64,000 bases of DNA from Opitutus sp. (GTDB lineage Bacteria > Verrucomicrobiota > Verrucomicrobiia > Opitutales > Opitutaceae). This document shows positions 6,861 to 23,969 of the stretch, piece after piece. The position numbers were made by a program, and so were the translations under genes. The stretch's first letter is position 1. Every line of letters begins with the position of its first letter. The DNA lies in the NCBI GenBank assembly GCA_024998815.1, contig JACEUQ010000001.1, forward strand, positions 124,001 to 188,000. The letters are read 5' to 3'. Under the pieces are notes generated by a model. That model saw nothing but the letters and a program-made list of their open reading frames with translations. It ran no database searches and was not told the DNA's origin.

Positions 6861-7167
6861 CTAGATGTGCGAACGCGCAACCAACCGGCGGGGTGGCGGT
6901 GGTCCGCAAGGTCAACCAAATCACTCGCGGTTGGGCTACGGCGTTTCATTACGGCAACAGCACGCACGTGTTTAGTAACCAGCAGGCTTTTGTGCGCAAC
7001 CGGTTGCGGCGGTGGCTGTGGCGAAAGTATAGCCGCACCCACGGACTCTTCGAGTTCTTCACCGACGACCGTTTGCATGGTCAATACAAACTATGGCACT
7101 GGCCGCTTACGGCGGCTTGGAAGCAATGAACTCCGCTGAAACCAAACCGAAAGAATGGGGACTCGGT

Positions 7168-7257
7168 AAGCCGTGTGCGGGAAAACCGCTTGCACGGTTT
7201 GACGAGGGGGAGGGTCGCGCTGACGGGTTACCGACGCGCGGCTCTCTCTACTCTACT
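7168..7257 (+). ncRNA. Group II intron domains V and VI, copy 1
   Basis: Domain V is the ~33-base hairpin starting AAGCCGTGTGCGGGAAAACC and ending GCACGGTTT (7168-7200). It contains the AGC triad and GAAA-type loop expected of the catalytic domain. Domain VI follows, closing with a pyrimidine-rich end that should contain the branch-point adenosine. Both domains are identical in sequence to those of copy 2. Confidence 0.85.
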
Positions 7258-7486
7258 AAACGGAACGGGTGGGTGAGCTGGTGTTTGTTTTTGGCTAAAC
7301 GGTTCCTCGACGGTTCCAGTGGGACGTCCCCAATCCATTTGCCACAAAAACACAAGATGACACAAAAACGGCCCCCTAATCCGTTTAACCACGAAGGCTC
7401 GCGAAGGTGCGCAAAGAATAACGCAATTACTTGTTAATTAAATGTATTTATCCGCTTCGCGTCCGCGTAGCCTAAGTTAATCGCGC

Positions 7487-9967
7487 TTAATCGCGCAGCA
7501 GCGATTTGAGGTCGGTGAGGGTGAGCTTGGCGTTGTTCAGGTCGCTGGCCTCAAACACGTCGGCGAGCAGGGCGCGTTTGGTTGCCTGCATGTGCAGGAC
7601 CTTCTCCTCGACCGTACCCGTGCAGATGAGTTTGTAACTGGTCACCACGCGTTTTTGGCCGATGCGGTGGGCGCGGTCGGTGGCTTGCGCCTCGACGGCC
7701 GGATTCCACCACGGGTCGAAATGCACCACGGTGTCGGCGCCGGTGAGGTTGAGGCCGGTGCCGCCTGCCTTGAGTGAGATCAGGAAAACGGGGATGTCGG
7801 CTGAGTTGTTGTAGCGATCCACTTCGGCCTGCCGCTGCTTTTGCGGGGTGCTGCCATCGAGGTAACAGTAGGACAAGCCCTGTTCCTCGAGTTCGGCGCG
7901 CAAGAGTCCGAGCAGCGAGGTGAATTGGGAAAACACCAGCAGGCGGTGCCCGTCGTCGACTGCCTCGGCAAGGAGTTCGCGGAAGGTTTCCAGTTTGCTG
8001 GAGTGGTCGGCGGAGGTGGCCGGTGCAACGAGACGCGGGTCGCAGCAGATCTGGCGCAGGCGCAGAAGCTGGGTGAGGGTGGCCAGGCGTAGGGAATTTT
8101 CGGATGCGCCGTCGGCGGCAAGGGCGTCGAGCTCCTGCTCAGACTTTTGCTGCCACTCGGTGTAAAGGCGGGACTGGACCGGCGACGGCTCGCAGTAAAG
8201 GACCTGCTCGATCTTGTCGGGCAACTCGGGGGCGACGGCCTTTTTGGTGCGGCGCAGAAGGTAGGGCGAGGTTTTCGCCCGCAGGCGTTCATCGAACCAC
8301 TGGCGCTCGTCGCTGCGGGTGCCGGCGGGGATTTTTTCGAGGTACCCGGGCATGAGCAGGTCGAAGAGCGCGCGCAGGTCGTCGAGGGCGTTTTCCACCG
8401 GTGTGCCGGTGAGCAGGAAGCGGCTGCGCGCGTTGAGGCTGCGCAGCGCCTGGGCGTTCTGAGTGCGGCGGTTTTTGATGTGCTGGGCCTCGTCGGCGAT
8501 CAGGCAAGCAAGCGGGATGTCGGCAAACAACTCGCGGTCGCGGGCGAGCGTGCCGTAGGAGGTGATCAACAGGTCGTGAGGGGTTGCGGACTCCGGCGTG
8601 GTTAAACGCGTGGTGCCGTGGTGGACAAAGACGCTTAAATGCGGAGCAAAGCGGGCGGTCTCACGGCGCCAGTTTTCCACCAACGAGGCGGGGCAAACCA
8701 CCAGCGACGGCAGTCCATTGGGCGAGGAGTGGCCGGGGCGGCCCGATGAAACTTGAAGTGAGGTAGTCGTTGGCGTTGCGCCGGCACCGCGTAGGGCAGC
8801 CAAAAGGGAGATGGCTTGCAGGGTTTTGCCCAGGCCCATCTCGTCGGCCAAAATGCCGCCGAGCCCGTGGCGATGAAGGTGCCAGAGCCAGGCCACGCCA
8901 ATCTGTTGGTAGGGGCGCAACAGGGCGTTGAGTTCGTCGGGCAGCGGCGCGGGCGTGAGCGTGGAGAGGTTGCGCAGGGCCTCGCTGCGGGCCTTCCAGC
9001 CGGCGGGTGGCTGGTAGTGGGGCACGAGTTCGTCGATCAACCCCTGCACTTCGGCGACCCGTGCGGCGGGGACGCGCCAGGTGCGGCGGGCGGCAGCCGG
9101 GGCGTTGGCGCTGCCGGCGAGCGCGCGTTGGGCGGTGGTGAGGCGGGCGATTTTCTCCGGCGGCAGCAGATAAACTTTACCCGCTTCTTCCACATAGCCG
9201 CGATTGGTGGCTAGGGCCGTGCGCAGTGCGTCGTCGCTGATCTTGCCGGCCTGCAAGCCGAGTGTGAGGGTGAAATCACCGGCGGTTTCGGTGATGTCGC
9301 ACTGCACGTCGATCTCGGCTAATTTGGCCGTGTTGGCTTCGAAGTTTTCGGTGAACTCCGCGTGATAGGTGTCACGTAACGCGACGAGGTGAGTCGCGAG
9401 GAAATTGAGGGTTTTGTGGCGGTCTCGCAGCCACCAGGTGCGCGTCGTGGCGTCGAGGGAGAACCCGTGGGTTTTGACCAAATCAAGGGCAGTGGCGTAT
9501 CCGCTTTGCTCCCGTGAGGGCAGGGTGATGGCCAAAAAATGCTCACTGCCGTCGACCGTTAACAGCGTGACGGGGGCGGGGGCTTTACTCGCCGCTGCCA
9601 ATGATGAGGCGCGCACGGCGAGGGGAGGGCGGACGGGGAGATCGGGTTTGGCAACGGGGGCTTCTTCCAAAAGCTCGCTCACGCCGCGCAGGCGCGGACC
9701 GATCCACAGGATGGAAACCGTGGGGGTGGCAACTAAGCTAAAGGCGGGTTGGCCCCTGAGTGCGGCGATCAGTTCGCGCAACTGGGCACGGGTGAGTTGC
9801 ACGAAGGGCGGGGGAGTGGCGACGCCGCCGCACAGGCGTTTGAGAATCGCCAGAGCGGGGAATTCCGCGCGGTTGGGCGCGGCGGAGGCGACGATTTCGA
9901 TTTTAACCGCGATGGCGTCGCGGGGGGCGGCAGCGGCGAGATTGGGCGGTAACAGGAGGCGCAGCAT
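7487..9967 (-). CDS. SNF2-family DEAD/DEAH-box helicase (HepA/RapA-like)
   Basis: An 826-residue ATP-driven DNA translocase. About 340 N-terminal residues match no motif I recognise. The SNF2 core follows: Walker A GGILADEMGLGKTLQAISLL, LLITSYGTLARDRELF, the DEAQ box CLIADEAQHIKNRRTQNAQ, RFLLTGTPVENALDDLRALF, then the second lobe with LLVFSQFTSLLGLLRAEL, YLDGSTPQKQRQ and the motif V/VI region LKAGGTGLNLTGADTVVHFD to ATDRAHRIGQKRVV. The ATG at 9967 is preferred; an in-frame GTG at 9994 would add nine residues. Homologues of this type often pair with a SWIM zinc-finger protein, but none is adjacent. Its cellular role cannot be read from context. Confidence 0.9.
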   Translation of the reverse strand: MLRLLLPPNLAAAAPRDAIAVKIEIVASAAPNRAEFPALAILKRLCGGVATPPPFVQLTRAQLRELIAALRGQPAFSLVATPTVSILWIGPRLRGVSELLEEAPVAKPDLPVRPPLAVRASSLAAASKAPAPVTLLTVDGSEHFLAITLPSREQSGYATALDLVKTHGFSLDATTRTWWLRDRHKTLNFLATHLVALRDTYHAEFTENFEANTAKLAEIDVQCDITETAGDFTLTLGLQAGKISDDALRTALATNRGYVEEAGKVYLLPPEKIARLTTAQRALAGSANAPAAARRTWRVPAARVAEVQGLIDELVPHYQPPAGWKARSEALRNLSTLTPAPLPDELNALLRPYQQIGVAWLWHLHRHGLGGILADEMGLGKTLQAISLLAALRGAGATPTTTSLQVSSGRPGHSSPNGLPSLVVCPASLVENWRRETARFAPHLSVFVHHGTTRLTTPESATPHDLLITSYGTLARDRELFADIPLACLIADEAQHIKNRRTQNAQALRSLNARSRFLLTGTPVENALDDLRALFDLLMPGYLEKIPAGTRSDERQWFDERLRAKTSPYLLRRTKKAVAPELPDKIEQVLYCEPSPVQSRLYTEWQQKSEQELDALAADGASENSLRLATLTQLLRLRQICCDPRLVAPATSADHSSKLETFRELLAEAVDDGHRLLVFSQFTSLLGLLRAELEEQGLSYCYLDGSTPQKQRQAEVDRYNNSADIPVFLISLKAGGTGLNLTGADTVVHFDPWWNPAVEAQATDRAHRIGQKRVVTSYKLICTGTVEEKVLHMQATKRALLADVFEASDLNNAKLTLTDLKSLLRD

Positions 9968-9994: not shown

Positions 9995-10375
9995 TCCCTA
10001 TCGGCGGCGGAAGTAAAAACGCCGGTTCGGCACGAAATGTTACCCGACTGCAAAAAAGAACTGGGGTTGTGGTCGCATGGCTTCCCTCGACGGGTCGTGC
10101 TTTCTGAAAAAGGATGCTCTTCGCGAAGGGAAGACGCACGGGTCCAATACGTAAGCAGCCCCGCTTGTTATCTGTTTATGTTCGTCGCTACATCAAAAGC
10201 CAACGCTACGAAGGGGTTTGAAATCGGGTAAACGACCGGATGCGCGCCGCGATTTTACATTTCATCAGCTAAAACGGGCTCGACATCATGCCTGAAAAAA
10301 TAATTTTCGTGTCGGCTGTTCAGTTTACTACGGTAAACAGGGGGCTACTTTCTCTGTATATTTACTAATTAATCT
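9995..10375. other. Intergenic region between divergent genes
   Basis: This 381-base gap separates the SNF2 helicase (minus) and the FecR-domain gene (plus), so it should hold both promoters. It becomes AT-rich over the last 100 bases and carries a 16-base palindrome at 10323-10338. I see no further gene, RNA or repeat. Confidence 0.5.
10323..10338. promoter_or_regulatory. Palindromic operator-like site upstream of the FecR gene
   Basis: GTTTACTACGGTAAAC is an inverted repeat of GTTTAC around a 4-base spacer, 38 bases before the ATG. An AT-rich stretch (TGTATATTTACTAATTAAT) separates it from the start codon. Position and symmetry suit a dimeric regulator site. No regulator is encoded nearby, so this is inference. 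Confidence 0.35.
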
Positions 10376-11221
10376 ATGAAATCCATACGTCTTACGTTGT
10401 CCATTATCGCCGCTGCCGTGGGTGCCCTTGTGGCCTCCGCCCAGCAGGCTCCCGTCGAAGCAGTCATTTCTTCGTTTGTCGGCACAGTGACGGTCACTGC
10501 TCCTGGCGCAACCGCTGGCGTCCCCGCTGTGGTCGGCCAAAAACTGCCCGAAGGTTCCACTGTCACCACCGGTGAAGGTGCCAACGTTTTGATTCAGTCC
10601 CACGAAGGCATCACCACCGGTTTGAGCGCGAGCGCAACCGCTGTCGTCGGTACGCACAGCGTCAACGCTGAGGGCGTCCGCACCGCAGTGATCGACCTGA
10701 AGACGGGCACCACCGTCTCGGTTCTCGATCCGAGCAAGCGTAAGATTAATAACTACGGCGTTCGCACCCCTAAGGGTGTCGCTGCCGCCCGTGGCACGAC
10801 CTATTCGACCAACGTTAAGGTCAACGGCCAGAACGTTGAGGTTACGGTCAACACCCTGACGGGCAAAGTGAGCTTCTCTATCGCAGGCGGTGCAAACATC
10901 GAGGTGGCCCCCGGATTCACCGCTACTTCCAATGGCACTAGCGCCATCATCACGAATGCCACTCAAAAAGAAGCGCTCTTGTTGGCCATCCAGATCGTTG
11001 CGATCATCTCCGAGACCAACCCGGCCGCTGCTGAAACCCTTAACGCCGTTGTTGATCAGTCCAAAAAAGCCGGCCTCACCGATGACGAAGTCAACGCAGC
11101 CAAGGATGTCAGCAAATTGGACATCAAGGTGGCAAAGGCCTCGCCCGATGAGCCCAAGAAGATCATTGTCGAGACACCGAAAAACACCCTCGACATCACG
11201 ATTGTCAGCCCGTCCCTCTAA
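10376..11221 (+). CDS. Secreted FecR-domain protein
   Basis: A 281-residue exported protein. Residues 1-22 form a Sec signal peptide ending at ASA-QQ. The body carries a FecR-type domain: an early SSFVGTVTVTAP strand, GQKLPEGSTVTTGEGANVLI, and later GVRTPKGVAAARGTTYSTNV and NTLTGKVSFSIAGG. The C-terminal third (QIVAIISETNPAAAETLNAV) is predicted helical. Classic FecR proteins are membrane anti-sigma regulators; this one has no transmembrane anchor beyond the signal peptide and no neighbouring ECF sigma factor or TonB receptor. It therefore more likely has a structural or cell-envelope role. A strong terminator follows, so it is monocistronic. Confidence 0.8.
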   Translation: MKSIRLTLSIIAAAVGALVASAQQAPVEAVISSFVGTVTVTAPGATAGVPAVVGQKLPEGSTVTTGEGANVLIQSHEGITTGLSASATAVVGTHSVNAEGVRTAVIDLKTGTTVSVLDPSKRKINNYGVRTPKGVAAARGTTYSTNVKVNGQNVEVTVNTLTGKVSFSIAGGANIEVAPGFTATSNGTSAIITNATQKEALLLAIQIVAIISETNPAAAETLNAVVDQSKKAGLTDDEVNAAKDVSKLDIKVAKASPDEPKKIIVETPKNTLDITIVSPSL

Positions 11222-11243
11222 TTTCGGACGAGGTTAACTCCTA

Positions 11244-11277
11244 AAAACCGGCACCGTCGTGGTGCCGGTTTTTTTGT
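11244..11277 (+). terminator. Intrinsic terminator after the FecR gene
   Basis: The perfect stem AACCGGCACC/GGTGCCGGTT around GTCGT is followed by seven T residues and then GTG. It lies 22 bases after the FecR-domain gene stop codon. Confidence 0.9.
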
Positions 11278-11391
11278 GCCTGATTCCATCAATCTCATGC
11301 AAACGCAGACAGCAGTTGTGAGATCGGGGTGCCAGCTACTACCGGAGTGCTTGGATATTGATCAAAGCTGACTGGCACCTCGATCCACGAC

Positions 11392-11883
11392 TTACAACCC
11401 GCCATGGCCGGAGTGCGCCTCCAGCGTAATGGGGGTGTTTAGTTGGTGAACCTGCACCACCAAGGCATTTAGCCCCGGCGGCTGTCCCCAATCGAACTTT
11501 TCGCGAACGGTGGCTTCCGTCCAATCATGAAATGGGTCCAGCGCGGCGACGGCCGACCAGTCGGACACGAATCGGTGATGCGTCACCTCGGCGAAAGCGG
11601 TGAGCGTAACCTGCGTATCGAGTGGTTCGCTTGGCTCGGAATTCAGCCGCTGGGCTAGAGCTGGTTTGGTCTTTTCGCGTTGGGCGTGAAACTGTGTCGG
11701 AAAAAGCCAAAAGCGGTCTGCGCGTTCCGGGTCAAAGCCGCCGCGCCCCTCCGCAATACCGCCCTTGCGCAACAGCAGCGATTGTTCGCCAGCCGCCAGT
11801 GCGTCGACGATCACCTGCCATTCTTTAAAGGCGGGATACAGGTAACCGGTTGTAGTCGAAAGCGTGGTGTCGGAGGTCGGCAT
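11392..11883 (-). CDS. DUF1802 family protein, probably frameshifted at the 3' end
   Basis: A 163-residue cytoplasmic protein with the family hallmarks AFKEWQVIVDALAAGEQSLL, LRKGGIAEGRGGF and WLFPTQFHAQREK. The function of DUF1802 is unknown. The reading frame ends at ...EAHSGHGGL. If one base is removed just upstream of that stop, the next frame reads MAGCKSWIEVPVSFDQ and continues to a stop at 11295. That resembles the AGCKSW ending I recall for this family. The gene therefore looks like a recent single-base insertion, or a sequencing error, that removes the last ~36 residues. Confidence 0.75.
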   Translation of the reverse strand: MPTSDTTLSTTTGYLYPAFKEWQVIVDALAAGEQSLLLRKGGIAEGRGGFDPERADRFWLFPTQFHAQREKTKPALAQRLNSEPSEPLDTQVTLTAFAEVTHHRFVSDWSAVAALDPFHDWTEATVREKFDWGQPPGLNALVVQVHQLNTPITLEAHSGHGGL

Positions 11884-11948
11884 TTGGGCAAAGAAAAACC
11901 GCAGTGGTTAAACTGCGGTTTTAAATTTTTGTCAGAAGCGAAGATTGC

Positions 11949-12062
11949 TTACTTCTTGGCCTTGGCGGCGGGCTTCTTGGCAGCGGCGGCGGCCTCCTTC
12001 TTGCGTTTGTGGTAGGCAATGCGGCGCTTCTTCTTGATGTGTTTGTTGGATTGTTGGCCCAT
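11949..12062 (-). CDS. 37-residue Lys/Ala-rich basic protein
   Basis: The minus-strand frame from the ATG at 12062 encodes MGQQSNKHIKKKRRIAYHKR followed by KKEAAAAAKKPAAKAKK. The charge is extremely positive, with an N-terminal nucleic-acid-binding-like half and an alanine/lysine tail like those of histone H1 or small ribosomal proteins. I do not recognise a named family. A regular start, a defined stop and position between two genes suggest it is real. It may bind RNA or DNA; that is inference. Confidence 0.65.
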   Translation of the reverse strand: MGQQSNKHIKKKRRIAYHKRKKEAAAAAKKPAAKAKK

Positions 12063-12252
12063 AGATTTTTTAGGTGAGTTGCAGACCTTGCCGGATGCAG
12101 GCAGCCGGAGTCAAGCGCAGGGTCGTAACTAACTCCGGGTATCTTTCAGGACCTTGAGGGGCGGTCGGCGCGCCCGGGCACGGAAAGACTGCGAGTTCGG
12201 CAATGTTGGGGGTTGAACGTTGGGGCCTACTCGCTTTGCTCGGCCGTTCGCC

Positions 12253-13797
12253 ATGTCGCTCCTTCCTTTTTCCAGCCAGCTCATCGCCGATGTCGGCATC
12301 TCCCTCGGTGACGAGGGCAAAGGCCGCCTGATCCCCGAAGTCGTCCACGAGTTGCGCAACACCGCCGCTCAGGTCACCACCGTTCTCAAGGTCAATGGTG
12401 GCGCCAATTCCGGCCACACCGCCGCCGGCATTAAACTCAATTTGCTGCCCTCCGGCGTGGTCGAAAAGGAGCTCGCTCACCTCGCCATCGGCGCCGGCGT
12501 GGTCGCCGATCCGCGCAAGGCCTGGTGGGAAGCCATGCCGCTGGAGAAAAAGGGCTACAACGTCCTCGCCCGCCTCGTCATCGACGAGCGCACCATGGTC
12601 TCCGACCTGACCCATCGCCTGCTCGACCTCGCGTGGGAGGATTATCGCGTCAACGTCCTTCAGGAAGAGCCGCGCGGCTCCACCGGCCGCGGCATCACGC
12701 CCGCTTACCAGGATGAAGTGGGCCAATGGCAAATCACCTACGCCGACTTCCTCGGCAGCCGTGAGGCCTACGCCAAAAAACTCGCGCAACGCGCCGAGCG
12801 CGCCCTCGCCACAATCCAGCACGTGTGCCGCGTCAGCGCCGAGACCTTCGCCGGCTTTTTTGACAAACTCGGTGCCGCCGAATTACGCGCCAACGCCGAG
12901 GCGATCGAGCTGGGCGTGTTCACCCCTGCTGAGTTCGACTTCACCGCTTTTCGCGGCACTGGCCCCTTTGCGATCAACTTGGCCGCGCTGACCGAGACCT
13001 ACTGGCAGGCCGGCCAACGCCTCGCCAAAAACATCGGCGAAGTTCGCGAGTTGATCCTCAAGGAAATCCGCGCCGGTCACACCATCATCGGTGAATTCGG
13101 CCAGGCCTACTGGCTCGACAAGCGCCACGGCTTTTCGCCCAACGTGACCGCTTCGCACACCTTCACTCCCGAGTTTTTCGAGAGCGCTGGCATTCCGGTG
13201 CAGGCCATCCACACCTTCGGCGTCGCCAAGGCCTACGACACCAAGGTCGGTACCCACGTTTTCATTACGCAGATGGACGAGGCGCACCCGCTCTCCTTCC
13301 TGTTGAAAAAACTCGAATTCGGCACCTCCACCGGCCGCCAGCGCATGGTCGGCTGGTACGACGCGGTGGAAAAGGGCGACGCCCTGCGTTACGGCGGCTT
13401 CCAGGACGTGATGATCAACAAGCTCGACGCCCTGACCCACCAGGGGGCGTGGAACTCCGATTTGCTCATCTGCACGGCCTACGAGGATGCCGCCGGCAAG
13501 CGCTACCACCACGTCCCGCGCAACGACGCGGTGCGCAAAATCCTCAAGCCGGTTTATAGCAAACACCCCGGTTGGACCGAGGATGTCTCCCAGGTTCGCC
13601 ACTTCGCCGACCTGCCTAAAAACGCCCAGCGTTACGTGGCCGCGATGGTCAAGGCGCTGCTCGACGTGGCCTTCCATGGCGAGCCGCTGCCGGCCGCCGC
13701 CAAATTGCCCAACCTGCGCTACCTCGGCGTCGGCCCCGAGCCCTCCCAGATCATCAAAGACGTCCCGGCGACCTCCGAGCTCATCAAGCTGGTGTAA
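12253..13797 (+). CDS. purA: Adenylosuccinate synthetase, divergent
   Basis: Catalyses GTP-dependent joining of IMP and aspartate, the first committed step to AMP. The 514-residue product is about 80 residues longer than typical PurA. The start at 12253 gives [20 protein letters not shown]. The GTP/IMP loop is [11 protein letters not shown], where most family members have a QWGDEGKGK-type sequence. The catalytic Asp (D20) and the NSGHT His (H55) are kept. Later motifs [17 protein letters not shown] and [18 protein letters not shown] match the Arg loop and the base-binding segment. Retention of D20 argues against the phage PurZ-type enzyme. It is monocistronic, with a repeat-containing gap downstream. 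Confidence 0.88.
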
Positions 13798-14154
13798 TCC
13801 TAATGCCTGTAAGGCATGGCCCGGATAAATCTAGGGATAAGCAAGTTGCGCTATAATATTGATATACGAACGAAGGAATCGAGTACACCGAACCGAAACG
13901 CCCCCGAGTCCCTGACGAAAGAGAACGAGTAAGAGAACGAGAACGATTCAATCCCCGTCCACCGATCGGCACGTCAGCGGCACCGCTGAATTCCGTATCG
14001 TTCTCGTTCTCTTAATCTTACTCGTTCTCGATCCGACGCCGATTGCTCGAGGTAGAGCATGCCTTAACGGCATTGGGCTTAATCCCCCGTAGCCGCGCGG
14101 GCCCCGGCTTGGGCCTTGTGATCGGGGAATCGGCGGCGTTTATGGAGCGCATTT
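13798..14154. other. 357-base gap holding a GAGAACGAG inverted repeat
   Basis: There is no gene here. The main content is the inverted repeat at 13919-14029 described separately. The remaining sequence shows no recognisable promoter, tRNA or coding signal. Confidence 0.5.
13919..14029. repeat. Inverted repeat built of GAGAACGAG units
   Basis: The left arm (13921-13947) reads GAGAACGAGTAAG then AGAACGAGAACGAT. The right arm (about 13997-14029) is its reverse complement except for a six-base addition (CTTAAT) in the middle. The arms are separated by about 50 bases. Each arm itself repeats GAGAACGA. Such a structure would form a long hairpin in RNA downstream of purA. It looks like one member of a dispersed repeat family. 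Confidence 0.75.
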
Positions 14155-14907
14155 ATGTGCGCTGCATTTTCACCGGAAGAAGACTCGTTGTTCGAAAAGA
14201 CCGGTGCCGCCGTGCTCAAACGGCTGCGCAAAACGCGCAACCCGGCCGACCTGCTCGCGGCCGTGGTCAGCGCGCACAAGGAGTTTGACCGCGCGTTTGC
14301 TACGGCTGCGCCCGAGGCCAAAGCGGTAGTCGCGTGCCGTGCGGGTTGCGACGCGTGTTGCCACGTGCCGGTGGGCGTTCAGGCCCACGAGGTGCTGATC
14401 GCCGCCGCCCACGTGCAAACGCATTTTTCGCCCACGCAGCTCGATGAACTGATCGCGCGCACCGCTGCACACCGCGCGGCGTTCGCCGGTCGGAACAACG
14501 TCGAGCGGACGGCGCTTAAACCCCCCTGCGCGCTGTTGGCGGAGGGGAGCTGCTCCATTTATGCTGCCCGGCCCGAGGCGTGCCGATCGCATCACAGTCA
14601 CAACGCCGAGTCCTGCCGCACCAATCTTCAGCACGGTAACGAAGCGCTCGACGTCTATATCCCTGGGGTGCGCGGGCGGATGTTTGCCGTCATGCTGGCG
14701 ATTGATCAGGCGGTGGTGGAGGCCGGCTTTGACGGCCAGGCTTATGATTTCGGTTCCGCACTGCATGAGGCGCTCACCAGCAGTCTGTGCGCGGTGCGCT
14801 GGGTTCAGCGCCAAAATGCGTTCCCCGACGCCTGCCGTGAGGCCGGAGATTCGGACGATGACGGGGACTCGGGTGTGATGCACCCGGAGGGGTATTTTCA
14901 GGATTAA
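14155..14907 (+). CDS. YkgJ-family cysteine cluster protein
   Basis: A 250-residue protein with the conserved cysteines of the YkgJ/Fe-S or zinc cluster family: CRAGCDACCHVPVGVQAHEV (about residues 62-81), then PPCALLAEGSCSIYAARPEA and CRSHHSHNAESC. Family members are thought to bind a metal or iron-sulfur cluster, but their substrates are mostly unknown. There is no signal peptide. The C-terminal tail is acidic (AGDSDDDGDSG). It stands alone between repeat elements, so context gives no functional clue. Confidence 0.82.
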   Translation: MCAAFSPEEDSLFEKTGAAVLKRLRKTRNPADLLAAVVSAHKEFDRAFATAAPEAKAVVACRAGCDACCHVPVGVQAHEVLIAAAHVQTHFSPTQLDELIARTAAHRAAFAGRNNVERTALKPPCALLAEGSCSIYAARPEACRSHHSHNAESCRTNLQHGNEALDVYIPGVRGRMFAVMLAIDQAVVEAGFDGQAYDFGSALHEALTSSLCAVRWVQRQNAFPDACREAGDSDDDGDSGVMHPEGYFQD

Positions 14908-15086
14908 CCCAAACGCCGAAGTTTTAACCACAGAATTCACCGATGCGCACAGATACCAGAATGTTGCTGAATTTTGAGACGGGATAAAAAAGGGGGATAA
15001 CGTCGGCTTCGTTTAGCTCCTAAGGGTTTGTATCCGTGCAATCTATGTAATCTGTGGTTGGCTTGAACTTCGGAATTCAGGATTAA
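14908..15086. repeat. Palindromic MITE-like repeat, copy B (reverse orientation, empty)
   Basis: The same repeat as at 3166-3346, inverted and without an intron. It is bounded by the direct repeat TTCAGGATTAA (14898-14908 and 15076-15086), which looks like a target duplication, although part of it overlaps the element's own ends. It shows the uninterrupted state of the site used by both introns. Confidence 0.8.
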
Positions 15087-15123
15087 TGGCTTCGTCTTCT
15101 GCTGAAGCAAATTCCCCTTGGGC

Positions 15124-16167
15124 TCAGGGGTGCGCTTCGGTTTTCGGCGCAGTTTTGCCTTGGGCCAATTGGGGCGTGACTGTTTCGCCCGATTGGCCGA
15201 CTTGAGCCAACGATCGGGCCAGACGGGTGCTGAACACACGCGCGCCGTCGGGGTTGAGGTGCATCGAGTCGGCGAAATTGCCCTCGTCTTCCACCCAGTC
15301 GCTGGCGTTGAGGTAGGTTGCCCCCGCCGCGCTCGCCAGTTCGCGCACGTGGGCCCGTAGCCGAGGCCAGATCGGCTTGGCGTAGAACGCGGCGCGGTGC
15401 TGCCGGGGCATGGGCATCTCCACGAACAGCACCCGGATCTGGTGCGCGTGGGCGAGTTGCACGATTTGGCTGATCGGCGCGGAAAACCCCGCCCGCTTGT
15501 CCGTGATCGCCGTGCAACGTTCGACAAACGAGGCGATTTCCGGCGCTCCCGGCGGCCCGAAATCGTCCACTCGGCCAAACCGGTTCGTTTTTTGTGGCGG
15601 TAATCCGATCGCGGAAAACTGCCGCCGCAGCCGTTCCACTTTTGTCCACAGCGAGGAGCGTTCGGCCAGCATCGGCACGTGCTGGGTGAAAACCAGCTCC
15701 CAGCGCTTCAACAGGGATCCGGGTGCGTAGAGCTCAGCGGCCAGCTCCGGGTCGTAGTACGAAAAGGCCCGATTACCCACGAGGTCCGACCATTCGCCAA
15801 GCGCGGGAGCATTGAGTTGATCGTCAAAGAAACCATAGACGAGCCACTGGGGCCGCAGGTCGTGCGCGAGTGCCCGGCGCCAGATGAGGAAATGCTCCAC
15901 GGGCGTGGTCGCTCCCAGCGCGAGATTGAGCGAGGGGGCCGCAGGTTGGTTCGCGGGCCAACCCGCCCGAAACGATGCCGGGTCACCGCCCGCCTCCATC
16001 AGTGAATTCCCCAAAAACACCACGGAGGTGTCCGCTGGTGGGTGCGAAACGGCGGCAAGCGCCTGCTGCCGTTGCGAACGCACGGCCAGATGCGCGATGA
16101 GGGCGTTGTAGCCGAGGAGCACGAGCAGCGCCACGCCGAGCGCAAGGAGGAGTCGCTTGGTTTTCAT
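15124..16167 (-). CDS. Membrane-anchored SGNH/DltD-like protein
   Basis: A 347-residue protein with one N-terminal membrane segment (LLLALGVALLVLLGYNALIA) and an extracytoplasmic SGNH-hydrolase-like domain. Block I is VVFLGNSLMEAG with Ser55. The catalytic Asp/His block is ADSMHLNPDGARVF (D300, H303). Proteins of this type (DltD, AlgX/AlgJ-like) act after an MBOAT protein to move acyl groups onto surface polymers. It is the last gene of a tight three-gene operon, starting 3 bases after the microprotein stop codon. The acylated polymer and the acyl donor are unknown. Confidence 0.85.
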   Translation of the reverse strand: MKTKRLLLALGVALLVLLGYNALIAHLAVRSQRQQALAAVSHPPADTSVVFLGNSLMEAGGDPASFRAGWPANQPAAPSLNLALGATTPVEHFLIWRRALAHDLRPQWLVYGFFDDQLNAPALGEWSDLVGNRAFSYYDPELAAELYAPGSLLKRWELVFTQHVPMLAERSSLWTKVERLRRQFSAIGLPPQKTNRFGRVDDFGPPGAPEIASFVERCTAITDKRAGFSAPISQIVQLAHAHQIRVLFVEMPMPRQHRAAFYAKPIWPRLRAHVRELASAAGATYLNASDWVEDEGNFADSMHLNPDGARVFSTRLARSLAQVGQSGETVTPQLAQGKTAPKTEAHP

Positions 16168-16170
16168 CGC

Positions 16171-16353
16171 TTAAAAATCGATGTAGATGAACCGCGAAGA
16201 TTGACCGCAGAAAAGGATCACCGCGCCCAGCAGCGCCCCCCACCAAAGGCCGCGCAGCCAGGCGCGGTCAAGGTGCCCGGCGCCCACAGGGGGGGCCGTG
16301 CCGCAGCCCTGCAGAAACTCGCACACCGACTTGATCCAAAACAACGTTTTCAT
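16171..16353 (-). CDS. 60-residue DltX-like microprotein ending FIYIDF
   Basis: This small gene lies between the MBOAT and SGNH genes (7-base and 3-base gaps) in a different frame from the MBOAT gene. It encodes a soluble N-terminal stretch, one transmembrane helix (about residues 33-50, LRGLWWGALLGAVILFC) and the C-terminal hexapeptide FIYIDF with Tyr57. Gram-positive DltX microproteins are likewise single-span and end in FIYxxF. Many MBOAT proteins carry a FIYFQF-like ending themselves. The terminal tyrosine has been proposed as the acyl-carrying residue. I infer that this peptide shuttles acyl groups between the MBOAT and SGNH partners. Confidence 0.75.
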   Translation of the reverse strand: MKTLFWIKSVCEFLQGCGTAPPVGAGHLDRAWLRGLWWGALLGAVILFCGQSSRFIYIDF

Positions 16354-16360
16354 GGGGAGG

Positions 16361-17539
16361 TTAAACGCCGGCGATTCGCCGGAAAAAGAAGAGTGCAGTC
16401 GGTAAATCCATACAGAAAAACGCCCAGCCGAGGTTAACCGAAACGAAGGTCAGCGCCCACCCCGCCGCTGCACCCCAGGGCGAGGGTTGCGCACTAGCCG
16501 GGCGCCAGCTTTTCCATATCCGGTGCCCGGCCAGCAGGATTCCGTGCCACAGGCCCCAGACGAGGAAGTTGAGCCCCGCGCCGTGCCACAGGCCGCTGAC
16601 CGCCAGAGTGGTTAATACGTTGAGGTAAACGCGCTGCGGTGACCGGCGTGACCCGCCGAGGGGAATAAAAACGTAATCCGTGAGCCACTTGGTGAGCGAG
16701 ATATGCCAGTGAGCCCAGAACGCGGCGATGTTGGTGCGGGCGTAGGGCCAATCGAAGTTCTCCGGCACCTTGATGCCAAACAGGCGGGCCGAGCCGATCG
16801 CTATGTCCGAATAGGCCGAGAAATCGACGTAGATTTTCACCCCATAGGCCAACAGCCAAAGCGGTAGGGCCCACCGCTCCGCCCGCGCTATATCGGCCAT
16901 GTTCAGGTGGTCGGTGAACGCGCTGAGCAGGTCGGCGATGGCGAACTTTTTGGCCAACCCGACGAGGATGCGAGTGATGCCCAGTTCCCAGTCCTCCGCC
17001 CATTCGAGGGAGGGCTGCGCGAGTTTGGCGGCGAAGTCGGGGTAGCGCTTGATGGGGCCAGCCACCATGGTCGGGAAAAACAGAATGAAGGCGAGGTAGT
17101 CGGCCAGTTTGCCGCGTTCGGCGGTGCCGCGGTAACGGTCGACCGCGTAATGGATGAATTCGAAGGTGAAAAACGAAATGCCGAGAGGCAAAAACGCCCC
17201 CGCCCAATACCACGGATTCTGAGGTGGCGGCCCCAGCACCAGACTGGTGAGGAAATTCCAGTATTTGAAAATGATCAGGAACACGAGGGCCTGGGCGATG
17301 CCGGCCAGGCACAGCCAGGAGCCGGGTTTGTAGAGGCGGCTGAAGGCGCTCTCCCACATAAAGATTAGCAGGCAAAACGCGCCGGCGGCTCCGCCGATCT
17401 GGGTGAGGGAAAAGAAAATAAAGAAGGCGGCGCCGAAGAAAAAGCATACCCACGGCTGCCAGCGCGCCCCGGCGATCCGAAACCCGATGGCCGCCGGAAC
17501 CAGAAAAATCAGGAAATAGGTGAAGGTGTTGAAAATCAT
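16361..17539 (-). CDS. MBOAT-family membrane O-acyltransferase (AlgI/DltB-like)
   Basis: A 392-residue polytopic membrane protein that moves acyl groups across the inner membrane. Start MIFNTFTYFLIFLVPAAIGF at 17539 is chosen because the 16 upstream residues are not membrane-like. Family motifs include ISFFTFEFIHYAVDRYRG, FFPTMVAGPIKR, KIYVDFSAYSDIAIGSARLF, NIAAFWAHWHISLTKWLTDY and VSGLWHGAGLNFLVWGLWHG with the catalytic His319. It stops at RRIAGV, short of the usual FIYFQF tail. That tail is present in the next small gene instead. It forms an operon with the two downstream genes. Confidence 0.9.
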   Translation of the reverse strand: MIFNTFTYFLIFLVPAAIGFRIAGARWQPWVCFFFGAAFFIFFSLTQIGGAAGAFCLLIFMWESAFSRLYKPGSWLCLAGIAQALVFLIIFKYWNFLTSLVLGPPPQNPWYWAGAFLPLGISFFTFEFIHYAVDRYRGTAERGKLADYLAFILFFPTMVAGPIKRYPDFAAKLAQPSLEWAEDWELGITRILVGLAKKFAIADLLSAFTDHLNMADIARAERWALPLWLLAYGVKIYVDFSAYSDIAIGSARLFGIKVPENFDWPYARTNIAAFWAHWHISLTKWLTDYVFIPLGGSRRSPQRVYLNVLTTLAVSGLWHGAGLNFLVWGLWHGILLAGHRIWKSWRPASAQPSPWGAAAGWALTFVSVNLGWAFFCMDLPTALFFFRRIAGV

Positions 17540-17866
17540 GGCGGCCTGCGAGCCGCGCAGAATAGCGGATCTCGGGGGCGACCGCACTGGGGCGCTAGCC
17601 GTATGAGAGGGTGGGGCTCAACCCACGGGGAGCCACCTCCGCCGGAGGTTTTGCACTACGGCGCGTTGGCCCTCATCCGTTGACCAACACAAGGACGGTG
17701 AAACCGGTCCCAAGTACACAAGCGGCGGGTTTGGAGCGCCGAACTTCCTTCGAACGGCCTCGCCAGTCCCTTTTGTGTGCACACAAAAAAAGGAGCCCGG
17801 TGAAGGGCCCCTTTTTTAACTTTTGTGATTATCGAGCAAGGCTCGGCTCACTCGAACGGCAGCGCT
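17540..17866. other. 327-base gap with terminator
   Basis: It contains the glycogen phosphorylase terminator at 17784-17817 and an 18-base perfect palindrome TTTTGTGTGCACACAAAA (17771-17788) overlapping its tail. The remainder should hold the promoter of the MBOAT operon. No gene is seen. Confidence 0.5.
17784..17817 (-). terminator. Intrinsic terminator after glgP
   Basis: On the minus strand GGGGCCC-TTCACC-GGGCTCC is followed by seven T residues and GTG. It has A-runs on the other side, so it could work in both directions. It lies 50 bases after the glycogen phosphorylase stop codon. Confidence 0.8.
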
Positions 17867-20422
17867 TTATTGGCAGCAGGCGACGACCGAAACGGGCGGC
17901 AGGCTCCAGATGTCCTTGGCGTATTCGCGGATGGTGCGATCGCTGGAGAACTTACCGACGCGTGCGGTGTTAAGAATCGCCATCTTGGCCCAACGTGACT
18001 TGTCGCGGTAAGCCGCGTCCACGCGTTCGTGGGCTTGGACGTAGGTGCGATAATCGGCGAGCACCTTGTAGGGATCGCCACCATCGAGCAGGCTGTGGTG
18101 GAGCGAACCGAACGCATGGCTCTCGCCGGGCGTGAAGTACTCGGAGCCGAGCCAATCGATGACCGCGCGCAATTCCTCGTCGTCCCCGTAGTAGTTCCAC
18201 GGGTTATAACCCTTGGCGTCGAGCGCCTCCACATCAGGCACCTTCAAGCCGAAGATGAAGATGTTGTCTTCGCCCACCTCTTCGCCGATTTCAACATTGG
18301 CGCCGTCAAGGGTGCCGATGGTGAGCGCGCCGTTGAGGGCGAGCTTCATGTTACCCGTACCGGACGCCTCTTTGCCAGCAGTCGAAATCTGCTCGGAAAG
18401 GTCTGCGGCAGGGATGATGCGCTCAGCCAGGGAAACCCGGTAGTTGGGCAGGAAAACCACCTTGAGTTTGTCCTTGATACGCACGTCACGATTGATGCGG
18501 TCGCCGATAACGTTGATCGCACGGATGATGTTCTTGGCGAGGTCGTAGCCGGGGGCTGCTTTTGCGCCAAAAATGAACACGCGGGGGACGATATCGAGGG
18601 ACGGATTTTGCAACAAGCGGCGGTAAAGGGTGATGATGTGCAGCAGGTTGAGGTGCTGTCGTTTATATTCATGCAGGCGCTTGATCTGGACGTCGAAGAG
18701 CGCGTCCGGAGAGACGACCACACCGCACTGGTCGTGAATCACCGCGGCGAGGTCTTGTTTGTTGGCGCGCTTGATCGCCATGAACTCCTTTTGGAAGTCG
18801 GCCTGGTCGGCGAACTTCTCCAATCCGCGTAGCACATCGAGGTCGCGGGCCCACACCAAGGGCGAGCCGAGTTTCTCGGTGATCAGCCCGGAGAGGCGGG
18901 GGTTGCAATCGAGCAGCCAGCGGCGCGGGGTGATGCCGTTGGTCTTGTTCTGGAACTTGCCCGGATAGAGCGCATCGAAATCAGGGAAGAGGTCCTTTTT
19001 GAGCAACTCGGTGTGCAGGGCTGCAACGCCGTTGACCGCGTGCGAGCCGACGACGGCGAGGTTCGCCATGCGGAAGGATTTGGCACCACCTTCTTCAACC
19101 AGCGAGAGAATGGCCTTCTTCGAGTTATCGCCGGGCCACTTGGCCTCGACCTTTTCCATGAGACGACGGTTGATCTCGAAGATGATTTGCGTGTGCCGGG
19201 GCAGCACGCGGGTGAAAAGAGGCACGCCCCAACGCTCCAGCGCCTCAGGGAGCAGCGTGTGGTTGGTGTAGCCGAAGGTTTTGACCACAATTTCCCATGC
19301 GTTTTCCCACGTGAAGTTATTCTCGTCGATGAGGATGCGTAGCAGTTCGGGCACCGCGACCGCAGGGTGCGTGTCGTTGAGCTGCACGGCGACTTTGGCG
19401 TCGAAGTTAGCCCAGGAGTTGCCGGGGAGGCGGAAGTGACGGCGGATGATGTCGCGAAGCGAGCACGAGACAAAGAAGTACTGCTGAACGAGGCGCAGCT
19501 CCTTGCCGTTTTCGGTCTTGTCATTCGGGTAAAGGACCTTCGAGACGGTTTCGCCGATGGCCTTTTCGCGCACGGCATCGACATAACCGCCGCTGTTGAA
19601 GGCGACCAAATCGAACTCCTCGGTCGAACGCGATGCCCACAAGCGGAGCAGGTTGACCGTTGCCGTGCCGTAGCCGGCGATCGGAATGTCGTACGGGACG
19701 CCCAAAATAGTTTTCGTATCGACCCAGCGGGGACGGGAGTTGCCGTGGTCGTCAAACACGTGCTCGACCCGGCCGTAAATCTTAACCTCGGTGGTGTATT
19801 CAGCGCGTACCACTTCCCACGGGGTACCGAACATCATCCAGTTGTCGGGATGCTCGACTTGGTGGCCATTGACGAACTCCTGCTTGAACAGGCCGAATTC
19901 ATAATGGATGCCGTAGCCGATGGCGGGCAGGTCCAAGGTGGCGAGCGAGTCTAGGAAGCATGCAGCCAAGCGGCCAAGGCCACCGTTGCCTAGACCCATG
20001 TCCACTTCGCTCTCGCGAACTGACTCCCAGTCAACGCCGAGGTCTTTGAGTGAAGCGCGGGCTTCGTCGTAAAGGCCGGTGTTGTAGAGATTGTTCTCAA
20101 AGAGGCGGCCCATCAGGTACTCGAGCGAGAAATAATAAAGACGGCGCGCGTTGTGTTTGTTGTGTTCGCCTTGGGTGCGGATGAGGCGGGCGAGAATGTG
20201 TTCGCGAACGGCCAGGGAGGTGGCGATCCACCAATCGCGCGGAGTGGCCGTGGTGTGATCGCGCGCTAGGGTGAAATTCAGGTTGCGAACGATCGCTTGG
20301 CTCAAGGATGAAACCGGTGTGTCGGCGACTCGACTCGAGGGGGGCGATGAGGCCCCGTTCGCCGTAGCGATGGGAGCGGTTGAGGAGGCAGCCGTGGACT
20401 TGGTTTTTTTAGGAGCGGGCAT
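17867..20422 (-). CDS. glgP: Glycogen/starch phosphorylase
   Basis: Releases glucose-1-phosphate from alpha-1,4-glucan ends using phosphate and pyridoxal phosphate. The 851-residue product has an Ala/Ser/Pro/Thr-rich N-terminal extension of ~35 residues. The GT35 core follows: [60 protein letters not shown] and [20 protein letters not shown]. The PLP signature is [20 protein letters not shown] with Lys693. Full length and all motifs are intact. The product feeds the phosphoglucomutase encoded at 55282. It lies downstream of mutL and argH on the same strand but with its own terminator. Confidence 0.96.
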
Positions 20423-20545
20423 GCTTAAATTTTTTTGAAGCTAACTACTAGAATCGTGCCAGTTTGCTCGTGGCGGTGTGGCAACGAACGTTGTGGGTGA
20501 ATTTTTACGTAACTCGAACCTTAAAAAACGCTGCGACCGCTTTTT

Positions 20546-22432
20546 TTAGCGCTGAAAACGGCGAGCTAAATCGCCTTGGCTTAATTCGATGTGCGTCGGC
20601 GTGCCGCCCGGACTGGTCAGCGGGGCGCGGCAGGCGAACAGTTGTCCGACCAGTGAGAGCATGGCGGCTTCGCTGACGGTTTCGCCAAGCCGGACCGCGC
20701 GGGCTGCGGCAAGGCGGGCGAGTTGATCGCGCGCCACGTCGATTTGGCTCTCCTGCAGGCGGCCGTCGCGTAACGCACCGAGCAGCTCGCGCACAAAGGG
20801 CTCGGCGTCCCCCGGCGCCATCCACGCAGGCATTCCCTCGATGCGGAAAAAATTGCGGCCGAACTCAACGACCTCGAAGCCGTGGCCGTTGAGAAACTCC
20901 AAGCGGTCCAGCAGTAGCGCGCTGGCAATGGGGTCGAGTTCCATCGGTACCGGCAGCAGCAGCCGTTGACTGGGCACCGAGCCGTCGCGGAACTGCGCCT
21001 GCAGGCGCTCGAACCAAATGCGTTCGTGCGCCGCCCGGCGGTCGAGCAAAACCAAACCCGCGCGCGTCTCGAACAGGGCGTAGGTACCGTGGGCCACCCC
21101 TAAAAAGCGCCAACCGCCCACGGCCGTGGTCGTGGCGGGTGCCAGCGGCGCTGAGGGTTTGGGGCCCGCAGTCGCGCCGAGGCTCGGCCCGCTGCTAGCA
21201 GCAGGCGGGGTTGCGCGTGCAACCTCGGGCTGGGCGCGCAGCTGTGGCAAAGGGGCGCTGGGTTGCGGTGCGCTTGGGGCAACCGCCGCACGCGGCGGTT
21301 GCGGCAGCGCTATAAGCGGGGTGGCGAGTCGCTGAAGTCCCGACGGCAGCGGCTTTGCCTCGGTTGCTGCTGGCGGGCGAGTCGCGGCTTGCGGTGAATC
21401 CACCTCCACTGCCGCATTGAACGCCGGCCGCGAGGCAGAGTCAGCCCAATCGCGTAGTCGGGCCAGCACTGCGCGGATAATAAATCCCCGCACCTGCGTC
21501 TCCGAGCGGAAGCGTACTTCACGCTTCGACGGGTGTACGTTCACATCGACCGCGGCCGGATCGATTTCGAAAAAAACAAACGCCAGCGGGTAACGCCCCT
21601 TGGGCAACGATTCGTGGTAGCTCTCAATGAGAGCGTAGTTGATCGCCTTCGTATCCACGGGACGCTGATTGATGAAGGTGATCATCTCGTGGCGGGTCGA
21701 GCGGCCCGCTCCCGGGCGACCGATCAGGCCGCTCAAGCGCATGCCGTTTTCCGCAACGTCGATGGGCATGAGTTCTCCCGCCAATTGCCGGCCGAAAATC
21801 TCCGCCACTCGGCCCATCAAATCAACGCACTCCGGCGAGCGGAAAATCACCCGACCGTCCTCGATCAAGGTGAACGCCACCTTGGGAAACGCCAAGGCGT
21901 AGAGGCGCACGCCGGTGATGATGTGCGCCGCCTCGGTGGCGTCGGTTTTGAGGAATTTGCGCCGCGCGGGCACGGAGTTGAACAACTGCGCGACTTCGAT
22001 TCGCGTGCCGACGGGGCGTCCGCAGTCGTGGACATGCACGAACTTGCCGCCGTTAACCAAAATCTCCGAGCCGACGTCGGCGGCGGCTTCGCGGGTCTGT
22101 AACGTGAAGCGGGATACGCTGGCGATCGAGGGCAAGGCTTCGCCGCGAAAGCCAAAACTCGCCAGGCGGTTCAGGTCGTCAGCCTCGTTGATCTTGCTCG
22201 TGGCATGGCGCTCAAGGGCGAGCAGGGCGTCGTCGCGCGACATGCCGTGGCCATTATCCTCGATTCGCATGAGCGAACGTCCGCCGTGGCGAAACTCGAC
22301 TTCGACGCGGGTGGCACCGGCGTCGATGGCATTCTCGACGAGCTCCTTCACTACCGCTGCAGGGCGCTCAATCACCTCGCCCGCGGCGATCTGATTGGCG
22401 ACGCGGTCGGAGAGGATGCGAACTTTGGCCAT
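20546..22432 (-). CDS. mutL: DNA mismatch repair protein MutL
   Basis: Couples mismatch recognition by MutS to strand incision. The 628-residue product has a complete GHKL ATPase domain: RPAAVVKELVENAIDAGA (catalytic Glu30), RIEDNGHGMSRDDALLALER and SFGFRGEALPSIASVSRFTL. A transducer domain with NVHPSKREVRF follows. A Pro/Ala-rich linker (about residues 345-435) leads to the C-terminal dimerisation domain. There the usual DQHA...E endonuclease motif reads LLDRRAAHERIWFE, and the CPHGRP-type motif is replaced by SPGGTPT. The nicking activity may therefore be lost. It shares a strand with argH upstream, but a terminator lies between them. Confidence 0.94.
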   Translation of the reverse strand: MAKVRILSDRVANQIAAGEVIERPAAVVKELVENAIDAGATRVEVEFRHGGRSLMRIEDNGHGMSRDDALLALERHATSKINEADDLNRLASFGFRGEALPSIASVSRFTLQTREAAADVGSEILVNGGKFVHVHDCGRPVGTRIEVAQLFNSVPARRKFLKTDATEAAHIITGVRLYALAFPKVAFTLIEDGRVIFRSPECVDLMGRVAEIFGRQLAGELMPIDVAENGMRLSGLIGRPGAGRSTRHEMITFINQRPVDTKAINYALIESYHESLPKGRYPLAFVFFEIDPAAVDVNVHPSKREVRFRSETQVRGFIIRAVLARLRDWADSASRPAFNAAVEVDSPQAATRPPAATEAKPLPSGLQRLATPLIALPQPPRAAVAPSAPQPSAPLPQLRAQPEVARATPPAASSGPSLGATAGPKPSAPLAPATTTAVGGWRFLGVAHGTYALFETRAGLVLLDRRAAHERIWFERLQAQFRDGSVPSQRLLLPVPMELDPIASALLLDRLEFLNGHGFEVVEFGRNFFRIEGMPAWMAPGDAEPFVRELLGALRDGRLQESQIDVARDQLARLAAARAVRLGETVSEAAMLSLVGQLFACRAPLTSPGGTPTHIELSQGDLARRFQR

Positions 22433-22444
22433 GGATTCGGGGGC

Positions 22445-22481
22445 AAAAAAAGGTAGGCGCCTGAAAACCGGCGCCTACCTT
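22445..22481 (-). terminator. Intrinsic terminator after argH
   Basis: On the minus strand the perfect 12-base stem AAGGTAGGCGCC/GGCGCCTACCTT around GGTTTTCA is followed by a T-run. It sits just after the argH stop and 12 bases before the mutL start. Confidence 0.9.
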
Positions 22482-22486
22482 GATAC

Positions 22487-23887
22487 TCAGCTCAAGAGCT
22501 TCTGCCAGCGGGTGAATTGTTTCTTCACCTGCGCCGGGCCGGGCATTCCGGTGCCGCGGCGTTTGGCCATGGCGCGCTGCAGATCAAACACCACGGCCCA
22601 ATCGTCGCCGTAACCGGGGTGGATTTTCTTCACCTCGGCGGTGGGCAACTTGTCCAGCGGCAGCTTGAGGGTTTCGGCGAGTTTCACGACCGAGCCGACG
22701 GCGTGGTGCGCCTCACGGAAAGGCACTCCGCGATCGACCAAATAGTCGGCGAGATCGGTGGCGAGCAGTGCCGGATCGGCCACTGCCTCGGCGCAGCGCG
22801 GGCGGAAAACCGTTAGGCCGGCGATTGTACCGGCTAGCACGTCGGCGCAAAGCCCAGTCTGGTCAAAGCTGTCGAACACCGGCGGTTTATCCTCCTGCAG
22901 GTCGCGGTTGTAGGTGAGCGGAAGGCCTTTCGCGAGGGTGAGCAGCGTGTGGAGGTTACCCTGAAGGCGGGCCGATTTGCCGCGCAGCAGTTCGCACGAA
23001 TCGGGGTTTTTCTTCTGCGGCATGAGCGAGGAGCCCGTGCAAAAGGTGTCCGGCAAATCGATGAACTTAAACTCCACGCTCGACCAGATGATGAGATCCT
23101 CGGCGATGCGCGACATGTGCACGCCGAAGAGTGCGCAGGCGTTGGCAAACTCGATGAACAGGTCGCGGTCGGCGACGGTGTCCATGGAGTTTTGGGTGAC
23201 GCGCGGGCGGCCCTTGGCATCGACAAAGCCGAGCTGGGTGGCGGTGAACTCGCGATCAATCGGCAGGGTGGTGCCGGCGATGGCGCCCGACCCGAGCGGG
23301 CACCAGTTGGCGTGATCGGCCACGACGGCGAGGCGTTCGCGGTCGCGCTCCAGCATTTCCAAATAAGCAAACAGGTGGTGCGCCAAAAAGACGGGCTGGG
23401 CGCGCTGCAAGTGGGTGTAGCCGGGGATGAGTACATCGCCATCGCTCTGGGCCACCGAAAGGATGGCACGCTGGGCACCTAGGATTTTGTCGGAAAGGAC
23501 TGCGCAGGCGTGTTTGAACCAGAGGCGCATGTCGGTGGCGACTTGGTCGTTGCGACTGCGGGCGGTGTGGAGTTTGGCGGCGGCCGGAACGCTTTGGGTG
23601 AGCGCCTGCTCGATGTTCATGTGAACGTCTTCGAGCTGGGTGCTCCAGGTGAATTTACCCGCGGCGATTTGCGCGAGAATGGCGTCGAGGCCGCGATGGA
23701 TGGCGTCGCGCTCCTTGGCGGTGATGAGGCCGACGTGCGCCAGCATCGCCGAGTGGGCCTTGCTGCCTGCGATGTCGAACGGCGCGAGCCGGTGGTCAAA
23801 CGAGACAGACTCGCTGAACTTGAGCATCAATTCCGCGGGGCCGGCGGTGAAACGCCCGCCCCAAGTCGCTTGAGATTTCTTCGCCAT
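22487..23887 (-). CDS. argH: Argininosuccinate lyase
   Basis: Cleaves argininosuccinate to arginine and fumarate, the last step of arginine synthesis. The 466-residue product starts [20 protein letters not shown], where WGGRF is the usual opening. An upstream in-frame ATG would add seven atypical residues. Further motifs are [47 protein letters not shown] and the fumarase/aspartase signature [16 protein letters not shown]. All active-site segments are present. It stands upstream of mutL, with no other arginine gene in the window. Confidence 0.96.
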
Positions 23888-23969
23888 ATATGAAAGCGCA
23901 AAGAACACGCACCAGCCCTTCCGTGCGCAATGCGAAATACAACTCGCGCCTACGCGACTCAGCGCCGAT

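Follow-up and report, generated by a model that had tools for sequence, protein, structure and literature searches.

The systems closest to the locus described here are DltB-DltX-DltD, the PatA-PatB and AlgI-type pairs, and the AT3-SGNH proteins of the OatA type. According to the passages of a 2025 paper on PatAB that treat the mechanism (PMC12148441), PatA auto-acetylates the tyrosine of its own C-terminal hexapeptide, the acetyl-Tyr hexapeptide is accepted as a donor by PatB, and DltX, a separate D-alanine carrier in the Dlt pathway, has the same role as the tyrosine of the PatA tail; as cited there, the shared mechanism was first put forward by Schultz 2023. The same passages state that MBOAT-SGNH pathways other than Dlt are without a DltX-like microprotein, and in the open-licence literature we found no description of such a protein outside Dlt. 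Dlt genes are known in a few Gram-negative bacteria, as stated in the relevant part of PMC5541007; therefore, the presence of a DltX-type protein in a Gram-negative cell is no novelty on its own.

Here, we describe a three-gene locus in a window (the whole 64,000-nucleotide stretch of Opitutus sp. DNA that was analysed) that resembles each of these systems in part. Like DltB-DltX-DltD (TIGR04091, PF12459, PF04914), it has a separate, tail-less MBOAT of predicted DltB-like fold, a single-span microprotein with a FIYxxF ending and an SGNH protein with DltD as its best fold match. Unlike them, it has no DltA- or DltC-like gene nearby, its microprotein fails the DltX model, its MBOAT fails the DltB cut-off and falls in a separate clade, and its gene order is MBOAT-microprotein-SGNH. 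With the PatA-PatB and AlgI-type pairs, as characterized in the passages of PMC12148441 on PatAB, it shares an MBOAT and an SGNH protein, a C-terminal FxYxxF acyl-shuttle hexapeptide and the lack of a Dlt-type carrier protein, but in those pairs the MBOAT itself ends in the hexapeptide (mostly FIYF[QR]F among 132 tails), whereas in the window a separate gene encodes it. Proteins of the AT3-SGNH type are also described there as passing an acyl-Tyr intermediate on the outer side to an SGNH domain, as would happen here, but their membrane domain is unrelated and is fused with the SGNH domain in one polypeptide. The window lineage is an exception to the statement on non-Dlt pathways as worded in PMC12148441, and what is new is the non-Dlt lineage together with a near-strict trade-off between an MBOAT tail and a separate candidate carrier.

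A three-gene cassette and its proposed relay

The cassette consists of the following genes, in the order MBOAT-microprotein-SGNH:

16361..17539, minus strand: tail-less MBOAT O-acyltransferase, 392 aa (MIFNTF...RRIAGV), with an ATG start at 17539; assigned by its match to Pfam MBOAT
16171..16353, minus strand: single-span microprotein, 60 aa, ending in FIYIDF, with Tyr57 as the proposed acyl carrier; recognized by its ORF, dN/dS and invariant motif
15124..16167, minus strand: SGNH/GDSL-type acyltransferase, 347 aa, with an N-terminal helix, the proposed final transferase; assigned by a sub-cut-off GDSL match, its predicted fold and Ser55/Asp300/His303

Re-reading of the DNA bore out the coordinates, frames, endings and intergenic gaps of 7 and 3 bases given in a first-pass annotation, as well as its observation that the MBOAT stops at RRIAGV without a FIYxxF tail, which lies in a separate small gene in another frame. 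An FxYxxF ending is found in only one of the 1,221 ORFs of the window (stop-to-stop, ≥30 aa), that of the microprotein. In a profile search, the window MBOAT was the sole MBOAT match in its genome; therefore, no other MBOAT found there supplies the tail. The cassette is flanked by genes for a CxxCxxCC protein and a glycogen phosphorylase-type protein. Elsewhere in the window, at 12256-13794, lies a gene for an adenylosuccinate synthetase of 513 aa with two Pfam-matched stretches, the model being shorter (416 positions).

We think it very likely that the three products form a transmembrane acyl relay, with Tyr57 of the microprotein as the acyl carrier between the MBOAT and the SGNH protein. This is proposed because the locus has the same three functional parts as the described systems: like Dlt, it has the carrier as a protein of its own, and like PatAB, it lacks nearby genes for a Dlt-type donor system. 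The relay would proceed as follows: (i) the MBOAT would load Tyr57 with an acyl group taken from a donor in the cytoplasm, which is probably acyl-CoA; (ii) the microprotein, a single helix with its C-terminus outside, would swing the acyl-Tyr to the SGNH protein; and (iii) the SGNH protein would pass the acyl group via its active-site Ser55 to a cell-surface polymer, a glycan that may or may not be peptidoglycan. The microprotein would have the role that the C-terminal tail has in PatA/AlgI-type MBOATs and that DltX has in the Dlt pathway. The acyl-Tyr chemistry is presumed by analogy with reports on DltX and PatA, and the topology, the acyl-CoA donor and the polymer are likewise putative. The first-pass annotation had read the microprotein as a DltX-like carrier in an acyl relay, and the comparison of sequences and predicted folds gives that reading good support through the mutual exclusion of tail and carrier, the invariant motif and the folds. 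Counting against it are the lack of any Pfam or NCBIfam match for the microprotein, the weaker constraint on the SGNH gene (dN/dS 0.254) than on the other two cassette genes, the low TM score of the SGNH model to DltD, and the carrier-protein or AMP-ligase genes near some relatives and about 14 kb from the cassette, all given below. A separate carrier would be experimentally handy, since one could trap, swap or mutate the acyl-Tyr species and leave the MBOAT untouched.

The window microprotein has one hydrophobic span, at about residues 33-51, preceded by the basic residues K2, K8, R30 and R34, which together with the FIYIDF end suggests that the C-terminus is outside. In 24 aligned microproteins, 3 of them canonical DltX, F55, Y57 and F60 are invariant. 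Lengths range from 34 to 65 aa across 26 loci, with start codons placed by a simple rule and doubtful in places (L003 and L044). In 12 of these loci, the start codon falls within -8 to +7 bases of the MBOAT stop; elsewhere, the small gene is found 3' of the SGNH gene or before the MBOAT (L078 and L234). Most of the 21 split non-Dlt sequences end in FIY[IVTM][DAN]F and most of the 132 MBOAT tails in FIYF[QR]F, while DltX ends in FIYN[EDQ]F or FIYDGF in six extended loci and in FLYFGF in the sequence given in PMC11035591. Since DltX endings vary, the motif alone does not part the window lineage from DltX. In a profile alignment, the last 28 residues matched MBOAT tails with 96% probability over 26 columns and DltX with 71% over 9 columns, the latter against three DltX sequences only.

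Alternatively, the microprotein could be a structural or regulatory subunit that bridges the MBOAT and the SGNH protein, its tyrosine remaining unacylated. A regulatory role of the DltD and DltX helices is deemed possible in the part of PMC11035591 (2024) concerned with them, but what is conserved here is the FxYxxF ending and not just the helix, and this ending fills in the part that the MBOAT lacks; a purely structural or regulatory role is therefore very unlikely.

Families, folds and donor genes

By family model, the window microprotein is not a DltX. It has no Pfam or NCBIfam match at E values up to 1, DltX included, no match to DltX (PF12459) was found in the window genome at an E value of 0.001, and phmmer gave no match for it in the PDB. 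As controls, two canonical DltX proteins scored 64-66 bits against PF12459 (cut-off 25), and the relatives L221 (17.6 bits) and L047 (13.0 bits) stayed below. At E values up to 1, 6/24 microproteins had a DltX match, and the four of these that were traced are the two canonical proteins, L221 and L047; other families gave weak matches to single microproteins. Genes like that of the window microprotein, which no Pfam or NCBIfam model recognizes, probably often escape annotation. The protein does have the single span and C-terminal FxYxxF of a DltX, but it is encoded with an MBOAT and an SGNH gene only and not with dltA, dltB, dltC and dltD.

The MBOAT matches Pfam MBOAT (PF03062) at 3.4e-31 (109.2 bits, cut-off 27 bits), and its only NCBIfam match is TIGR04091 DltB, at 178.6 bits and under the equivalog cut-off of 375. 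The expected catalytic histidine is His319 in LWHG, which is invariant in an alignment of 16 split sequences. An FxYxxF of its own at the C-terminus, as in the PatA/AlgI type, is lacking. The predicted model (pLDDT 88.6) has DltB 6bug as its closest solved fold (E 1e-14, TM 0.77 by query length), followed by HHAT and other MBOATs. The SGNH protein matches Pfam GDSL at 2.5e-6, which is under the Pfam cut-off, and carries both a block I, GNS at 53-55 (Ser55), and a block V, DSMH at 300-303 (Asp300 and His303). Its model (pLDDT 82.7) is predicted to have an SGNH fold and an N-terminal helix at 3-28. The best fold match is DltD 3bma (E 1.1e-5), weak at a TM of only 0.41; many SGNH proteins outscore it when TM is taken over their own, shorter length, and PatB ranks 28. 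Across 18 SGNH-like proteins from 17 split loci, Gly-x-Ser and His are invariant, and at Pfam E values up to 0.01, 10/18 match GDSL_2 and 3/18 match DltD.

Patterns for Dlt-type donor genes were checked on dlt loci, where the DltA-like ligase pattern and the revised DltC-like carrier pattern were each found in 6/6. Neither pattern occurs in positions 10001-24000 of the window. Counting this region together with 39 split loci of 5-19 kb, neither gene is present in 35/40; the five exceptions are a carrier-protein gene in two Paenibacillus loci (L043 and L046) and AMP-ligases near L281, L290 and L291, other pattern matches having been judged spurious by reading. The DltA model gave a best score of 252.2 across the whole window genome, with a cut-off of 559.85 and nothing above it. 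There were six weaker matches, including pieces of an AMP-ligase-like gene at 31554-33080 (686-codon open frame; 55.7 bits), about 14 kb from the cassette. Because carrier or AMP-ligase genes stand near some relatives and this gene lies about 14 kb away, acyl-CoA is not a certain donor.

Some of these relatives have arrangements of their own. In L043 and L046 (about 2000-8620), a carrier-protein gene is followed by MBOAT, SGNH and microprotein genes, and in L043, genes reading like radical-SAM enzymes also lie upstream of this set; the acyl group that this branch uses may be bound to a carrier. L281:2-5649 holds two AMP-ligase-like ORFs, an SGNH-like ORF, a small ORF ending in FRYWGL and, on the other strand, a short MBOAT, and is possibly a further Dlt-like pathway. 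L232:3824-9104 contains a DltB-like short MBOAT on a long branch with an upstream microprotein ending in FIYEGF, and its 11 kb show no DltA-like ligase pattern.

A second alternative to the acyl relay is a reduced true Dlt pathway, in which the cassette would be a D-alanylating DltXBD set with DltA and DltC encoded elsewhere in the genome. The three-part layout is the same, DltB is the only NCBIfam match of the MBOAT, DltD is the best fold match of the SGNH model, and the ending is compatible with DltX given the variation noted above, FLYFGF in PMC11035591 included. However, the DltB and DltA scores both fall short of their cut-offs, no DltX match was obtained in the genome at an E value of 0.001, and the tree parts the window clade (96/89) from canonical DltB (100/100); we regard this explanation as very unlikely.

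Own tails and separate carriers among MBOAT loci

We recounted 293 MBOAT loci and sorted each MBOAT by its C-terminus; 80 named loci were read with flanks of up to 6 kb, most of the rest with flanks of 1.5 kb. An FxYxxF-like tail of their own is present in 172 distinct MBOATs, L070 (FIYFQY) and L091 (SIYEKF) being classed as tailed by a looser pattern. The 61 untailed ones comprise 16 canonical DltB, 42 tail-less non-Dlt proteins (that is, outside the 16 that score over the DltB cut-off) and 3 truncated or fragmentary sequences (L016, L052 and L168) left out of the 42. A separate ORF ending in F.Y..F lies near 39/42 of the tail-less non-Dlt MBOATs; the remaining three are L281, whose small ORF ends in the FxYxxL variant FRYWGL, L278, a tailed gene cut by a stop, and L004, where the region runs off the contig end. 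On both strands of the 171 loci with tailed MBOATs only (1,143,697 bases), the one ORF other than an MBOAT that ends in F.Y..F is a 20-codon ORF on the minus strand of L089, probably due to chance. Tail and separate carrier are thus near-completely mutually exclusive, and the pattern is general.

The 80 named loci cover 853,735 bases around related MBOATs and contain 14,426 ORFs of ≥30 aa. Of these, 81 have an F.Y..F ending: 68 are tailed MBOATs and 13 are microproteins, every one of the latter sharing its locus with a tail-less MBOAT. A chance motif is ruled out by these counts and by the 1/1,221 of the window. When 10 regions were picked by a short MBOAT frame alone, four had a separate FxYxxF ORF (L279, L280, L282 and L283); the others were L281 with its FxYxxL variant, the stop-broken L278 and four tailed loci (L284-L287). 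Four loci considered as tail-less without a microprotein (L040, L041, L042 and L121) each proved to have one in intergenic DNA or in longer flanks. At canonical DltB loci, DltX was found in 6/6 extended loci and in none of the other 10 within 1.5 kb flanks.

Conservation, phylogeny and distribution of the split type

A second genome of the same genus (G012) carries these three genes in the order seen here, with an MBOAT of 94% identity to that of the window. Between the two genomes, the MBOAT has a dN/dS of 0.068, the microprotein one of 0.097 (Fisher P = 5.8e-6) and the SGNH gene one of 0.254. The microprotein genes differ in 15 codons, with all four amino acid changes within residues 5-21 and synonymous differences only in residues 22-60. 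The microprotein is a real gene: the split is kept in a same-genus genome at a dN/dS of about 0.10, and its ORF is the only one in the window with an FxYxxF ending. One-frame read-through of the MBOAT into the tail in close relatives, which the first-pass annotation had named as the finding that would overturn its reading, was looked for, and G012 and four Acidobacteriota (62-66% identity) keep the genes apart. A frameshift, assembly error or decaying gene, by which the tail of one MBOAT is read as a separate ORF, agrees with the difference in frame and has a comparable case in L278, but we reject it as extremely improbable given this conservation, and because the small gene lies 3' of the SGNH gene or before the MBOAT elsewhere in the wider clade, where a frameshift is no explanation.

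Across the genus (13 genomes including G000, some incomplete), a close copy of the MBOAT was found only in G000 and G012; G002 and G010 have tailed MBOATs of 39% identity. Beyond G012, the closest relatives among the matches listed are the Acidobacteriota at 62-66% identity. This patchiness within the genus, together with the Acidobacteriota as the closest relatives listed, suggests that the cassette spread by horizontal transfer. In G012 (locus L027), the cassette is flanked by hemB/cysS-like and rmuC-like genes, named from the translations read and not by family search; the neighbors of 15124-17539 differ between the two same-genus genomes, as if the cassette had moved as a unit.

For the phylogeny, a careful tree was built from 90 MBOATs (48 of the 172 tailed, 37 split including the window, and 5 of the 16 DltB), with the tail columns excluded. 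The long-branched or broken L232, L278, L282 and L113 were left out, and the long branches L280, L281, L283 and L121 were kept. All 48 tailed MBOATs lie on one side of a single branch (97/85), with the split forms and canonical DltB opposite; the window split clade comprises 34 rows (96/89), and canonical DltB forms a separate group (100/100). In a quick tree of 87 rows with other sampling, the tailed state needs two changes and the split clade adjoins some tailed Melainabacterial rows, while a quick tree of 94 rows places the tailed rows and the stop-broken L278 on one side (90). Without an outgroup, these trees have no root; therefore, fusion (towards tailed) and fission (towards split) are not distinguished. 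Of the two origins offered in the first-pass annotation, a distinct carrier lineage fits better, as the split MBOATs form one clade on the DltB side of the 97/85 branch. The division between tailed and split forms turns the order of fusion and fission into a testable question. Stand-alone tyrosine acyl carriers might be general and old in bacterial MBOAT-SGNH machines, the three-protein form being ancestral and one fusion having given rise to the whole PatA/AlgI-type family, a scenario that we put forward tentatively and lean slightly against.

The split type does occur in Verrucomicrobiota, where the first-pass annotation would have searched for it, but that scope was too narrow, since it is also found in Acidobacteriota, Bacillota, Actinomycetota, Melainabacteria and a CPR bacterium. 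Among the matches listed, the split lineage occurs in genomes named to six phyla, and the named genomes of the window clade belong to Acidobacteria, Opitutaceae, Paenibacillus, Pelotomaculum, Coriobacteriia, Melainabacteria and Chisholmbacteria. The split type is uncommon. In the phylum of the L038 genome (297 genomes, not every match checked), G424 and G611 carry the clade and G828, G598, G787, G748 and G582 carry other split forms, and in the phylum of the Melainabacterial genome, the clade or the split type is present in at least 6/244 genomes. At L278:4152-5570, a tailed-type MBOAT is interrupted by an in-frame TAA, which is followed by 59 codons in the same frame ending in FIYFQF; L278 is nested among tailed MBOATs in the tree and may represent decay, readthrough or a fresh split.
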